Shown: positions 12,141 to 33,241 of the stretch, one piece after another
Layout: every line of letters starts with the position of its first letter
Position numbering within the stretch: position 1 is the first letter of the stretch
Source: Fibrobacter sp.
Lineage (GTDB): Bacteria; Fibrobacterota; Fibrobacteria; Fibrobacterales; Fibrobacteraceae
Length of the DNA stretch: 42,154 nucleotides
Assembly: GCA_024689485.1 (NCBI GenBank)
Contig: JAILDK010000046.1
Span: 1-42,154, forward strand
Reading direction: 5' to 3'
The notes under the pieces: model-generated
The model's input: only the letters and a program-made list of their open reading frames with translations
Databases searched by the model: none
Told to the model about the DNA's origin: nothing
Made by a program: the position numbers and the translations under genes

Positions 12141-13421
12141 ATGGATTCGAAGAAATTTTCTATTCCGCGCGTGGTGAAGGCTGCGTTACGCGAAGTGATC
12201 GTGCCGATTGCGTGCGCGCTGATTGTGATTCAGTATGTGATTCAGGCGTTCCAGATTCCGAGTGGATCGATGGAAGATACGCTGCTCACGGGTGACTTTA
12301 TTTTGGGCCTCAAGTTTACCTACGGTTCTCCGGTGCCGTTTACGCATGCGAAGTTCCCGGGCCTTACCGATCCCAAAGTGGGTGACGTCATCATCTTCCG
12401 CTATCCGGGGGAACCTGCTTACCCCGATTACGATTATGCGCGTTATACGCATCTCGCCGACGGTCTGATGTTTGGAAACTTCTATTGGGATTCGAAGCCT
12501 TTGCAGGGAAATCCGCACCTGGTGCACTTTGCCGATGGCCCCAAGGACTTCATTAAGCGCTGCATTGCGGTCTCGGGCGATACGATCGAAGTGAACCGCG
12601 GCGTGCTTTCGCAGAACGGGGTAAAAAATGCAATTCCGGGAAAGGGCAAGTACACGGCTTATTACCGCACAGGCATTGCCCGCGATTCCTTGGAAAAAAC
12701 GCGCGTGCCTGCTCCGGGTGACGTCATCGATCTTTCGCAGCTTTCGCTGCCAAGGCTCTGGTGGATCCGCTCCCTGATGATGCAGGAAAATCCGGAAAAG
12801 AAGATTGAACTGGAACTGAACCTTTACAAGGATTCTGTTCTCGACAACCATCATCATTTTGAAAACTTCCGCGTGCCTGTGGAAAATGACCGCGGGCTTT
12901 TGCTGAACGCGGTGATGTCGCAGGGGCAGATCGTGGGACAGGCGATTCACCAGGGCGATACGATTGCAGGCCCTGCGAGCTTTATGCTGTTCAAGCAGCT
13001 CGCTCGCACCGGATTCTTGCCGCGCTTTGATCCGAATGCCCATTACAAGGGGATGACGCGTCCGGTGAGCTACGATTATTTTGAAGGTTCCCAGCTCGGC
13101 GATCTCGCTTATAACGTTTCGCTGGATTCGACTCTCCGTTTGGAAGCGAACATTTTGGTGGACGGTCAAAAGACGACCGCGTACACGGTGCAGTATCCGG
13201 TGTACTTTATGATGGGCGATAACCGCGACAATTCTGCGGACAGCCGCTATTGGGGCTTTGTTTCGAGAAGGAACATTAAGGCGAAGGCTTTTGTCGTGTA
13301 CTTCTCCTTTGACAATGCGGACGGAAGCTTCTCCTTTGGAAATCCGTTCAGCTGGTTCAAGATTCCGTTCCAGATTCGCTGGACGCGCATCGGTAAGATC
13401 ATTCACATGATCGGGGATTAG
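12141..13421 (+). CDS. lepB: Signal peptidase I
   Basis: This 426-aa serine protease removes signal peptides on the periplasmic side of the inner membrane. One N-terminal membrane helix (residues ~18-36) leads to box B, IPSGSMEDTL, with catalytic Ser43. The general base Lys139 is in DFIKRCIAVSGD, and box E, GDNRDNSADSRYWGFV, follows near residue 360. The ~200-residue spacer between boxes D and E is much larger than in E. coli, as in other FCB-group enzymes. The frame extends upstream to 12018, but that part overlaps the divergent mscS start, so ATG 12141 is chosen. The next gene begins 6 bp after the stop. Confidence 0.96.
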   Translation: MDSKKFSIPRVVKAALREVIVPIACALIVIQYVIQAFQIPSGSMEDTLLTGDFILGLKFTYGSPVPFTHAKFPGLTDPKVGDVIIFRYPGEPAYPDYDYARYTHLADGLMFGNFYWDSKPLQGNPHLVHFADGPKDFIKRCIAVSGDTIEVNRGVLSQNGVKNAIPGKGKYTAYYRTGIARDSLEKTRVPAPGDVIDLSQLSLPRLWWIRSLMMQENPEKKIELELNLYKDSVLDNHHHFENFRVPVENDRGLLLNAVMSQGQIVGQAIHQGDTIAGPASFMLFKQLARTGFLPRFDPNAHYKGMTRPVSYDYFEGSQLGDLAYNVSLDSTLRLEANILVDGQKTTAYTVQYPVYFMMGDNRDNSADSRYWGFVSRRNIKAKAFVVYFSFDNADGSFSFGNPFSWFKIPFQIRWTRIGKIIHMIGD

Positions 13422-29788: not shown

Positions 29789-31096
29789 AATCCGGTAAGC
29801 GAGAACGCAAAAGAGAACGGAGAAAAGCGAACCCGCTGGAGCCGCTAGGCCCATCGGGGTCAGCGTCTCAGGGAAATGCTCGGCGGCAAGCCAGGTTCCC
29901 GGAATGCGAAAGAGTACAATCGAAAGCGCGTTGTGCACAAACGATAGAATCGAAAGTCCGCAGGCGCAAAAGTATCCGCTAAAGCAAAAGTGGATCCCTG
30001 CAACCAGGCAGTCGATTACGTAGGTTCTCAAGTATTCTGTTCCAAACTTTACCACGGAAGCGTCGCTTGTGAACAGCGCGAGGAACGGCTCGGAAAACGG
30101 CTGGAATAGAAGTGCAAAAAAGAGACCGATTCCTGCCGCAATCGCTGTTCCTGTCCAAAGCGTTTTCTTCGCCTGCGCATGCTTTCCTGCTCCGATGTTC
30201 TGCGCCGCAATCGCGGAAATCGTCGAAAGCATGGTGGACGGAACAAGGAAGAGGAAGGTGATGATCTTTTCCACAATCCCGACGGCCGCCGCGATTTCAA
30301 CACCGCGGCTGTTTGCAATCATCGTAATGAACAGGAACGAAACCTGAATGAATCCGTCTTGCGCGGCAATCGGCGCACCGATGTTCAAAAGCCCTTTGAA
30401 TAAAGCCTTGTGCGGCCTAAAATCCCGGCGGCAAAGTTTGACGCCCCAATGCAGTTTCTTTGTCGCGAAAAGGGAAATCAAAACGCTCATCGACTGCGCA
30501 AGGACCGTGGCGAGGGCCGCTCCCGCAGCCCCCAGGTGCATGCCGCCCATGAACACGTAATCCAAAATAATGTTCAGCACGCAGGCGACCGCGATGAAGT
30601 ACATCGGGTGCTTCGAATCTCCCATGCCGCGGAAAATGGCCGCAATCAGGTTGTACGCCACAATAAAAGGAATCCCGGCAAAGCAAATCTGCAAATAGCG
30701 CACGGTGCCATCGACCGCTTCTGCAGGCGTCTTGAGCAAGCTCACGATCGGTCCGCATAAAAGCAAAAGAGCGACTGTCGAAATCACCGCGACAAGGCTA
30801 AAGAGAACGATCGTGTTCCCGGTAATCCTCGAAACGCTCCGCAGGTTTCCTGCGCCCACGGCACGGCTTGTCAAAACGGTCGTGCCCATGGCGAGCCCCA
30901 CGATCATCACCGTCAGAAAGTGCATCACCTGGCTTCCCACGGCTACCGCGGTAATCGCATCCGCACCTTCGAACTGCCCAACGATGAACAGGTCCGCAAG
31001 GCCGTAGAGGGTCTGCAAAAAGTAGGCGGCAAAATACGGCGTCGAAAAGACGGCTATATTCTTAAAAACACTTCCTTCGGTCAAATTCACGGGCAT
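29759..31096 (-). CDS. MATE family efflux transporter
   Basis: This 445-aa membrane protein has twelve predicted helices in two similar halves. The opening block (IAVFSTPYFAAYFLQTLYGLADLFIVGQF), GLAMGTTVLTSRAVGAG, AAIFRGMGDSKHPMYF and the matching second-half segment AAQDGFIQVSFLFITMIANSRG are characteristic of MATE exporters of the NorM/DinF group. These couple Na+ or H+ entry to drug or metabolite export. ATG 31094-31096 is preceded by TAAATTCG only 4 nt upstream and TTG 20 nt further on. It converges on the GH9 gene with a 30-nt overlap and no terminator between them. The substrate is unknown. Confidence 0.94.
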   Translation of the reverse strand: MPVNLTEGSVFKNIAVFSTPYFAAYFLQTLYGLADLFIVGQFEGADAITAVAVGSQVMHFLTVMIVGLAMGTTVLTSRAVGAGNLRSVSRITGNTIVLFSLVAVISTVALLLLCGPIVSLLKTPAEAVDGTVRYLQICFAGIPFIVAYNLIAAIFRGMGDSKHPMYFIAVACVLNIILDYVFMGGMHLGAAGAALATVLAQSMSVLISLFATKKLHWGVKLCRRDFRPHKALFKGLLNIGAPIAAQDGFIQVSFLFITMIANSRGVEIAAAVGIVEKIITFLFLVPSTMLSTISAIAAQNIGAGKHAQAKKTLWTGTAIAAGIGLFFALLFQPFSEPFLALFTSDASVVKFGTEYLRTYVIDCLVAGIHFCFSGYFCACGLSILSFVHNALSIVLFRIPGTWLAAEHFPETLTPMGLAAPAGSLFSVLFCVLAYRILLHKNLVRT

Positions 31097-31100
31097 GGTG

Positions 31101-31131
31101 CGAATTTAGAAAAGCGCTTTTCGGTTGCCAA
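31101..31131 (-). promoter_or_regulatory. Promoter of the MATE gene
   Basis: On the minus strand TTG (31129-31131), 20 nt, TAAATTCG (31101-31108), then 4 nt to the ATG. Confidence 0.45.
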
Positions 31132-31244
31132 AAGGGCTCCCAAATTGTTAAAAATATTATTATAATTGTATTGATTAGTATAATTGATAGAACTAAAAAT
31201 GCTGTATCTTAGGCAAAAATCATAAAAATAAGGCTTTTTTGCCC

Positions 31245-31274
31245 TTGATTTTTGTTGCAGGGTTTCTAATTTTG
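31245..31274 (+). promoter_or_regulatory. Promoter of rplM-rpsI
   Basis: TTG (31245-31247), exactly 19 nt, TAATTTTG (31267-31274). A weaker alternative, TTG 31184 and TATCTTAG 31205-31212 (18 nt apart), lies upstream. The 31132-31240 stretch is AT-rich and holds no gene. Confidence 0.6.
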
Positions 31275-31283
31275 ACGCCGGAA

Positions 31284-31312
31284 CTGCGACACGTTTCTGT
31301 GTCCGCAGAAAC
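31284..31312 (+). promoter_or_regulatory. Structured leader of rplM (hairpin, possible pseudoknot)
   Basis: CTGCG-ACAC pairs with GTGT-C-CGCAG (31284-31308, one bulged C), leaving loop GTTTCT. The loop's GTTTC is complementary to GAAAC at 31308-31312 just 3' of the stem, so a pseudoknot or an alternative hairpin can form. The ribosome site AGAGGA follows. It may be an autoregulatory site for L13 or S9; this is inference. Confidence 0.45.
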
Positions 31313-31326
31313 TTTAGAGGAATGAC

Positions 31327-31761
31327 ATGAAAACCATTATGGTGAACCCGAAGACGGTCACTCGTCAGTGGAAGCTCATCGACGCTGAAGGCAAGCCCCT
31401 TGGCCGCGTTGCTACCGCTGCTGCTCGCCTTTTGATGGGCAAGCACAAGGCTATCTACTCCCCGAACGTCGACACTGGCGACTACGTGGTGATTATCAAT
31501 GCAGAAAAGGTTCTTACCACCGGTAAGAAGGCTGAACAGAAGCAGTATTTCCACCACACCGGTCACATCGGTGGCGAACGCTGGATCACTTATTCTGATT
31601 TGATCGCTAAGCACCCGACTGCTCCGCTTACCGAAGCTATCTGGGGCATGCTCCCGCATAGCGCTCTCGGCAAGAAGATGCTGAAGAAACTCAAAATCTA
31701 CGCTGGCGCGGAACAGCCGCACGCAGCCCAACACCTCGAAACCGTAAGCATCGATTTCTAG
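31327..31761 (+). CDS. rplM: 50S ribosomal protein L13
   Basis: This 144-aa protein of normal family length contains WKLIDAEGKPLGRVATAAARLLMGKHKAIY and the conserved DYVVIINAEKVLTTGKK, YFHHTGHIGG and MLPHSALGKKMLKKLKIY. L13 is an early assembly protein that binds 23S rRNA. The start ATG follows AGAGGA by a usual distance. rpsI follows after a 16-nt gap, the near-universal L13-S9 operon. The N-terminal extension MKTIMVNPKTVTRQ fits bacterial L13. Confidence 0.98.
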   Translation: MKTIMVNPKTVTRQWKLIDAEGKPLGRVATAAARLLMGKHKAIYSPNVDTGDYVVIINAEKVLTTGKKAEQKQYFHHTGHIGGERWITYSDLIAKHPTAPLTEAIWGMLPHSALGKKMLKKLKIYAGAEQPHAAQHLETVSIDF

Positions 31762-31777
31762 GACGGAGGATAAAGCT

Positions 31778-32182
31778 ATTACTACCGCAAAATCTAAGAA
31801 GATCTACCGTGGCACCGGTCGTCGCAAGAACGCCATCGCTGCTGTTATCTTGAAGCCGGGTACCGGCAAGCGCACCATCAATGGTCGCGATTTTAAGGAA
31901 TACTTCCACTCTGACGTTCAGAACATGATTGCAAACCTCCCGTTTGCTATCCTCGAAAACGCTGATCAGTGGGACGTCGAAGTTAACGCTCACGGCGGTG
32001 GCATTGCCGGCCAGATGGGCGCAGTCCGTCTCGGCATCGCTCGCGCTCTCGTTGCGAACAATGCAGAAGACAAGTCCGCTCTCAAGAAGCAGGGTCTCAT
32101 GACTCGTGATTCCCGTGCTGTGGAACGTAAGAAGTTCGGCCGCAAGAAGGCTCGTAAGAACTTCCAGTTCTCCAAGCGCTAA
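31778..32182 (+). CDS. rpsI: 30S ribosomal protein S9, apparent ATT start codon
   Basis: Translation from 31778 gives a 134-aa S9 of normal length: TTAKSKKIYRGTGRRKNA at the N-terminus, then GTGKRTINGRDFKEYF, and the C-terminus KARKNFQFSKR, whose terminal Lys-Arg reaches the P-site tRNA. The first codon is ATT. The frame has a stop at 31745-31747 and contains no ATG, GTG or TTG until TTG 31850, which would delete the conserved YRGTGRRKNAIAAV block. A strong Shine-Dalgarno, GGAGG at 31765-31769, stands 8 nt before the ATT. So the ATT is either a genuine rare start codon, as in infC, or a one-base change from ATG in this assembly. Confidence 0.93.
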   Translation: MTTAKSKKIYRGTGRRKNAIAAVILKPGTGKRTINGRDFKEYFHSDVQNMIANLPFAILENADQWDVEVNAHGGGIAGQMGAVRLGIARALVANNAEDKSALKKQGLMTRDSRAVERKKFGRKKARKNFQFSKR

Positions 32183-32210
32183 TCTCCGCTTCTCGAATTG
32201 CAAAATTCAA

Positions 32211-32246
32211 AAGAAAGGCTCCCGTTTGGGAGCCTTTCTTTTTTTA
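32211..32246 (+). terminator. Intrinsic terminator of rplM-rpsI
   Basis: AAGAAAGGCTCCC pairs with GGGAGCCTTTCTT around GTTT, followed by T residues. Confidence 0.93.
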
Positions 32247-32274
32247 TGCACTCAACAGATTGAACACCATTTTC

Positions 32275-32282
32275 TATATTTC
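32275..32282 (+). promoter_or_regulatory. -7-type box of rpsB-tsf
   Basis: TATATTTC followed by a ~140-nt leader. The nearest TTG (32260-32262) is only 12 nt upstream, shorter than usual. Confidence 0.4.
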
Positions 32283-32288
32283 CGCTCG

Positions 32289-32384
32289 CTTAAGCAATTC
32301 CGCTTAAGTACAATCAAGCACCGGCTTGTAAAAATCGCTTCGGTGGCTGGACTCTAACCCAAATCAGGTCCCGCTTTGCGATTT
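32289..32384 (+). promoter_or_regulatory. Structured leader of rpsB (three stems)
   Basis: Three stems can be drawn. CTTAAGC/GCTTAAG (32289-32308) has loop AATTCC. CAAGC/GCTTG (32315-32328) has loop ACCG. AAATCGC/GCGATTT (32332-32338 with 32378-32384) encloses a smaller GGAC/GTCC stem. Leaders of rpsB are commonly bound by S2 for autoregulation; whether this one is cannot be shown here. Confidence 0.5.
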
Positions 32385-32425
32385 CATTCAGGCCGGGAAG
32401 AATAACCGAAAAAAGGAAAAACATC

Positions 32426-33241
32426 ATGGCAAATTTGCCTTCCGTTGAAGAATTGCTCTCTGCAGGCGCTCACTTTGGTCACCAGGCTCAGCGTTGGAAC
32501 CCGAAGATGAAGCCGTACATCCTTGCCAAGAAGAATGACATCTACGTCATCAACCTCGACAAGACGATCAAGCTCCTCGAAGAAGCTGGCAAGGTCGCTG
32601 CTCGTATTTCGAGCGAAGGTAAGAGCGTTCTCTTCGTCGGTACCAAGCCGACCGCACGCGCTATCGTTGAAGACGCTGCTAAGAAGACCAACCACTTCTT
32701 CGTGTCCAACCGCTGGCTCGGTGGTATGCTCACCAACTTCCAGACCGTTCGTAAGTCCATCAAGCAGATCGACAAGATCGACCAGATGGAATCTGAAGGT
32801 CTCTTCAAGGTTCTTTCCAAGAAGGAAGTTCTCGATAAGACTCGTCTCCGCGAAAAGATGCTCAGCGTCTTCGGCGGTATCCGTGAAATGGCAACCCTCC
32901 CGGGCCTCATTGTCGTCACGGACCTCCACCACGAACACATCGCTGTGGCTGAAGCTCGTCGTCTCCACATTCCTATCATCGGCATCTGCGACACGAACGT
33001 CGATCCGACCCTCGTGGATTACCCGGTTCCGGCTAACGACGACGCTGTGAAGTCTATCAAGCTCATCGTTGACTACATTGCAGACAACGTAACGACCCGC
33101 TCTGAAGTCGCTAAGAATGCTGACGCTGAATCTGCTGCTAAGAAGTATGATGACGCTCCGGCTCCGCGCAAGCGCTCCTTCCGTCCGCGTAAGTCTGCTG
33201 ACAAGGCAGAAGACAAGTCTGCAAAATCTGAGGAAAAGTAA
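32426..33241 (+). CDS. rpsB: 30S ribosomal protein S2
   Basis: This 271-aa protein has family blocks LLSAGAHFGHQAQRWNPKMKPYI, VLFVGTKPTARAIVEDAA, RWLGGMLTNFQTVRKSI, and the C-terminal IGICDTNVDPTLVDYPVPANDDA. The last ~35 residues are a Lys/Asp/Ala-rich extension beyond the usual S2 end. S2 binds late at the back of the 30S head-body junction together with S1, which is also encoded in this window. AAGGA precedes the ATG. tsf begins 2 bp after the stop. Confidence 0.98.
   Translation: MANLPSVEELLSAGAHFGHQAQRWNPKMKPYILAKKNDIYVINLDKTIKLLEEAGKVAARISSEGKSVLFVGTKPTARAIVEDAAKKTNHFFVSNRWLGGMLTNFQTVRKSIKQIDKIDQMESEGLFKVLSKKEVLDKTRLREKMLSVFGGIREMATLPGLIVVTDLHHEHIAVAEARRLHIPIIGICDTNVDPTLVDYPVPANDDAVKSIKLIVDYIADNVTTRSEVAKNADAESAAKKYDDAPAPRKRSFRPRKSADKAEDKSAKSEEK

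Follow-up and report, generated by a model that had tools for sequence, protein, structure and literature searches.

The rplM-rpsI locus of a Fibrobacter draft genome raises the question at which codon the synthesis of ribosomal protein S9 begins and why an essential gene should keep such a codon. The answer proposed here is that Fibrobacter of the rumen and gut, together with related bacteria, start the S9 gene with the very rare codon AUU or AUC and not with AUG. The window, i.e., the whole stretch of DNA that has been analysed (42,154 nucleotides), comes from a genus that includes F. intestinalis ATCC 43854, and the features on which the reading of the locus is based are the following.

31327..31761, + strand: rplM (ribosomal protein L13), which opens the rplM-rpsI pair, ATG start and TAG stop, taken from the open reading frame list and found upstream of rpsI in relatives too
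31745..31747, + strand: TAA in the rpsI frame, closing this frame upstream, seen in sequence and translation
31765..31769, + strand: Shine-Dalgarno sequence (SD) GGAGG of rpsI in the leader CGGAGGATAAAGCT, pairing with the 16S tail GGAUUACCUCCUUU at -9.5 kcal/mol
31778..31780, + strand: ATT start codon of rpsI, the sole AUN codon at SD distance, with ATT/ATC conservation in the class
31778..32182, + strand: rpsI (ribosomal protein S9/uS9), 134 residues plus TAA, identified by its match to solved S9 chains
32206..32244, + strand: intrinsic-terminator-like hairpin with T run AAAGAAAGGCTCCCGTTTGGGAGCCTTTCTTTTTTT, read from the sequence, which ends the rplM-rpsI unit

In the rpsI frame, the earliest ATG, GTG or TTG after the TAA at 31745-31747 is the TTG at 31850, and the ATT at 31778 follows GGAGG after a spacer of 8 nt. 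A preliminary description of this DNA had placed the upstream stop, the GGAGG, the ATT and the TTG at exactly these coordinates, as re-reading has confirmed, and had claimed that translation from the ATT gives a full S9. This has been borne out by phmmer, which matches residues 10-134 to S9 chains of solved structure (E=8.7e-39), the GRRK block and the C-terminal SKR tail being present and the latter aligned. The gene ends with the TAA at 32180-32182; it directly follows rplM at a distance of 16 nt and is itself followed by the terminator-like hairpin, which gave sub-threshold matches in an Rfam scan of 31000-32500 that found no family at its threshold. That the ATT is not the start at all, but an assembly error, or that S9 begins internally at TTG 31850 or is reached by frameshifting or readthrough from rplM, is hardly credible, as the oddness of the codon is all that speaks for it. 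The TTG 31850 cannot be the rpsI start, because the conserved S9 block YRGTGRRK is encoded 5' of it and would be removed. Among relatives, the rplM stop lies at variable distance and in variable frame relative to the rpsI start codon, which counts against an L13-S9 fusion and rules out frameshifting or readthrough, and a sequencing or assembly error is ruled out by the AUC/AUU codon type shared by 73 genomes from many assembling groups. On this comparative reading, a start of rpsI at AUU/AUC is near certain.

The codon has been followed across relatives, most of whose genomes are metagenome-assembled, by reading the rpsI leaders by eye. Within the genus, rpsI is readable in five genomes, all of which carry ATT, among them the isolate ATCC 43854 and one single-contig genome; ATG, named earlier as the codon to look for in close relatives, has thus been found in 0 of 5, and it appears just in more distant lineages, mostly behind a weaker, remodelled leader. 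Most other genera of the same family use ATC (leaders such as ACGGAGGATAAATCT-ATC and ACGGAGGATACCTCT-ATC), and a second family, f4 (G114-G120, G123), also uses AUC/AUU, with CAGGAGGATATC-ATC-GCAACT among its leaders and ATT in one case. Counted with one genome per species, the class Fibrobacteria has 107 readable rpsI starts, of which 73 are AUC/AUU and 34 AUG; in this count, G105 and G115 have been set to ATC by eye because their sole canonical codons sit upstream of the SD, and G124 and G125 have been read as ATG. UUG has been found at rpsI in none of the readable genomes of the class, and outside the phylum three of three Bacteroidota rpsI loci read have ATG. The initial claim that S9 starts at a rare codon discriminated by IF3 is strongly supported by these counts, as is the view that the rare start codon is an old trait of the class, which may have either a single origin followed by several losses or independent origins in f1 and f4.

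The conservation of the site has been examined on a tree built from rplM and rpsI codons of 50 AUC/AUU species. On this tree, the first and second positions of the start codon have not changed and the third has changed once, and the leader shows zero changes at -12 to -6 and at -1. Fourfold sites of rplM/rpsI have changed 6.8 times on average, 0 of 60 being without a change and 1 of 60 having one or fewer. The SD block CGGAGGATA is constant in the 50 species except for one base in one of them. This lone change of the core SD block belongs to the AUC species G057 (L029 / L211), the SD of which is weakened (ACAGAGGAT vs. ACGGAGGAT). Leader positions -5 and -4 have undergone six changes each, so that the conservation of the block is not a mere result of its shortness. 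In the codons after the start, variation is greatest at the third position (e.g., codons 5 and 7), as is expected for a coding sequence beginning at the AUC/AUU codon.

With respect to the strength of the SD, rpsI of G005 (-9.5 kcal/mol) has been compared with 29 other translation genes, all of which start with AUG, GUG or UUG; their median is -6.5, and just 3 of them have an SD at least as strong. The rpsI SD amounts to -9.5 in the genus and to -10.3 in family f4. When rpsI and infC are pooled, AUU/AUC/AUA starts have a median SD of -10.3 (n=36) compared to -7.35 (n=72) for canonical starts (nominal p=8e-15, the rows being related and not independent). The motif CGGAGGATNNNNCTATY is present in five of seven genomes, in each of which its single copy lies at rpsI. 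The rpsE gene (S5) of G005 has a UUG start after AAGAGGTACAC, without an ATG near the N-terminus (L176 near 12680-13170).

Several other candidates for what could make the codon workable have been set aside. The 16S tail reads GGAUUACCUCCUUU as opposed to the usual GGAUCACCUCCUUU (16S rRNA 3' ends L158, L157, L159), and extra SD pairing with this unusual tail, GGAUUACC, would gain just about 0.2-2 kcal/mol, with bulges. A special initiator tRNA has been rejected, since each of 8 of 8 genomes has one canonical gene, with CAU anticodon and GGG/CCC stem, as found with a pattern that would miss an aberrant one. In the window's family, every AUC/AUU member has U at -1, which could pair with A37 of the initiator tRNA; such pairing is not a general compensation, as all 8 AUC/AUU members of f4 have C at this position. 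A natural change in IF3 fidelity has likewise been rejected as the cause, positions 75 and 99 of IF3 being without clean correlation to the type of rpsI start. The IF3 protein is full-length; position 99, an R in E. coli, is mostly H across the phylum, in the groups with UUG as well as in those with AUC at rpsI, position 75 is usually F and in some cases Y in Fibrobacteria, where position 168 is often N or K, and the outer classes have kept Y75 and have R168 in nearly all cases.

The other classes of the phylum, from which the class Fibrobacteria stands apart in a tree of S9 and L13 (98/88), start rpsI with UUG in 37 of 38 cases and with GUG in the remaining one, each with a good SD. Their infC genes (15 genomes) have a very strong SD, with a median of -11.8, and start with AUU (9), AUC (5) or AUA (1). 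In Fibrobacteria, infC has UUG in 37 clear cases and AUG in 2; in 2 ambiguous ones the conserved TTG is farther from the SD than an ATT, and 2 rows are unresolved. The infC of G083 (L147) has been left out of this count, as it starts with ATA, differs from its relatives at the N-terminus and probably stems from a misbinned contig. The genome of the window itself has a UUG infC (GAGGTAGCATAC-TTG, L181:1765). The start codons of infC and rpsI are hence reciprocal between Fibrobacteria and the other classes, and the analogy to infC drawn in the preliminary description has become stronger than first noted. It seems that, across the phylum, the IF3-discriminated codon type has passed from infC to rpsI, and Fibrobacter may have given up the classical autoregulation of IF3, given the UUG of its class and the AUU/AUC/AUA of the others. 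As the contrast represents essentially one deep split, it may be a coincidence and need not be causal.

IF3 is known to discriminate against AUU, AUC and AUA, and not against AUG, GUG or UUG (PMC4611024), and in vitro, more IF3 leads to less full-length product when AUU is read by CAU (PMC10158994). With AUU and AUC among the discriminated codons, S9 synthesis should depend on IF3 activity. In the reading that we favour, the ordinary CAU initiator tRNA would be set on the mismatched AUU or AUC codon by a strong SD at fixed distance, S9 made in this way would begin with fMet (the Met being expected to be cleaved off ahead of Ala/Thr), and its synthesis would be limited by, and responsive to, the activity of IF3. 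The arrangement known from infC would have been retained by infC in the sister classes, and in Fibrobacteria, with infC at UUG, the IF3-sensitive codon would be found in rpsI. For this explanation as a whole, comprising the AUU/AUC start on ordinary tRNA and strong SD, an IF3-sensitive rpsI and the exchange between infC and rpsI, we estimate a probability of about 0.62. The comparison of sequences has shown its basis, namely the start site, its conservation, the association with strong SDs, the contrast between infC and rpsI and the ordinary initiator tRNA. IF3-sensitive S9 synthesis in Fibrobacter is likely by inference, and any regulatory use of such repression at rpsI would be inferred likewise. 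It speaks against the explanation that several lineages of the class have lost AUC/AUU and live with AUG. Moreover, S9 is needed in step with other ribosomal proteins, so that AUU/AUC must work rather well here, and given this good function, the discrimination by IF3 may be weak in these organisms.

The purpose of an IF3-sensitive start could be any of three: gating by IF3, matching of the S9 dosage to L13, or a lock that couples rpsI to rplM. For the gating, it is a tentative possibility that at the base of Fibrobacteria the IF3-sensitive codon was passed from infC to rpsI, by which IF3 would have lost its self-control through AUU (infC being UUG) and would gate the supply of S9 instead; if true, this would be a rewired link from initiation fidelity to 30S assembly. 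The S9 tail has reportedly been linked to initiation fidelity, and the feedback loop suggested at the outset, in which S9 would be tuned through its contact with P-site tRNA, is a hypothetical possibility; the sequences agree just as well with a simple role in dosage or coupling. According to the dosage explanation, a weak codon and a strong SD together give a rate of S9 synthesis that matches L13, IF3 has no regulatory role, and codon and SD drift along a line of equal output. This is rather unlikely to be the full account, and the lineages with AUG bear on it from both sides. In the family core, AUG stands at the same aligned codon as AUC and the leader is altered each time, as in ACGGAGAAAACT-ATG (-6.6), ACGGAGATATAATCC-ATG (-6.6) and CGGAGGATCCAA-ATG (-9.5), which makes two or three events in all (with a p-AU of 0.40 in the AU test, the first two groups, in genus g6, may go back to one event); further AUG groups are g2/g4, f2, f5 and two f4 genomes. 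The SD is weaker in most of these lineages and covaries with the start codon as the dosage account would have it (-9.5 for AUC/AUU as compared to -6.6 for two of the family's AUG groups), and the phylum as a whole employs UUG, GUG, AUC, AUU and AUG at rpsI. However, the AUG lineage of G108 has retained a strong SD, and pure dosage setting leaves unexplained why AUC/AUU has lasted over ten genera when AUG with a weaker SD would be easier, as well as the reciprocal change in infC.

Alternatively, the poor codon could bar free ribosomes, so that S9 would be made mainly by ribosomes that finish rplM, and the control of rplM would thereby cover S9. The rplM stop lies about 15-24 nt upstream of the rpsI start, with the strong SD in between, and in E. 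coli L13 represses both rplM and rpsI (PMC10931766). Such a lock is nevertheless clearly improbable, as the spacing between both genes differs between species and UUG, as used in the other classes, would lock far less tightly.

Most genera of one family, and a second family too, have kept AUU/AUC in a ribosomal protein gene, and together with the reversed arrangement of the sister classes (infC AUU, rpsI UUG) this is a natural experiment that bears on the reasons for which bacteria employ IF3-discriminated codons; the natural AUC, AUU, AUG and UUG forms of rpsI make this question directly testable. For annotation, it follows from the codon itself that gene callers restricted to ATG, GTG and TTG will probably miss or truncate S9 in these bacteria.

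To our knowledge, conserved AUU/AUC starts are essentially confined to infC and very few other genes. A literature search has found no paper that reports an AUU/AUC start in rpsI, key subscription papers being outside its reach, and rpsI may already be known as a non-AUG gene in other phyla. In a survey of non-AUG genes, some translation genes are said to favour non-AUG starts across phyla, an idea into which the UUG rpsI of the outer classes fits. The rplM-rpsI operon of E. coli consists of the identical gene pair in the same order and is repressed by L13, yet its control proceeds via a structured rplM leader, and the review reports no rare rpsI start codon (PMC10931766). In Streptomyces, the GTC start of sigR represents a rare codon outside infC that is under IF3 control; like rpsI here, it is conserved, has a very strong SD and had been misplaced by initial gene callers, and it differs in being GTC and not AUU/AUC, in belonging to a regulatory gene and not to a ribosomal protein, and in that the IF3 repression has been established experimentally (PMC5472188). 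Compared with the IF3 autoregulation of infC, the product of rpsI is S9 and not IF3, so that any loop is not simple self-repression of IF3, and the infC of the class Fibrobacteria itself starts with UUG; common to both genes are the IF3-discriminated start, the strong SD, the role in the translation apparatus and the conservation over large groups.
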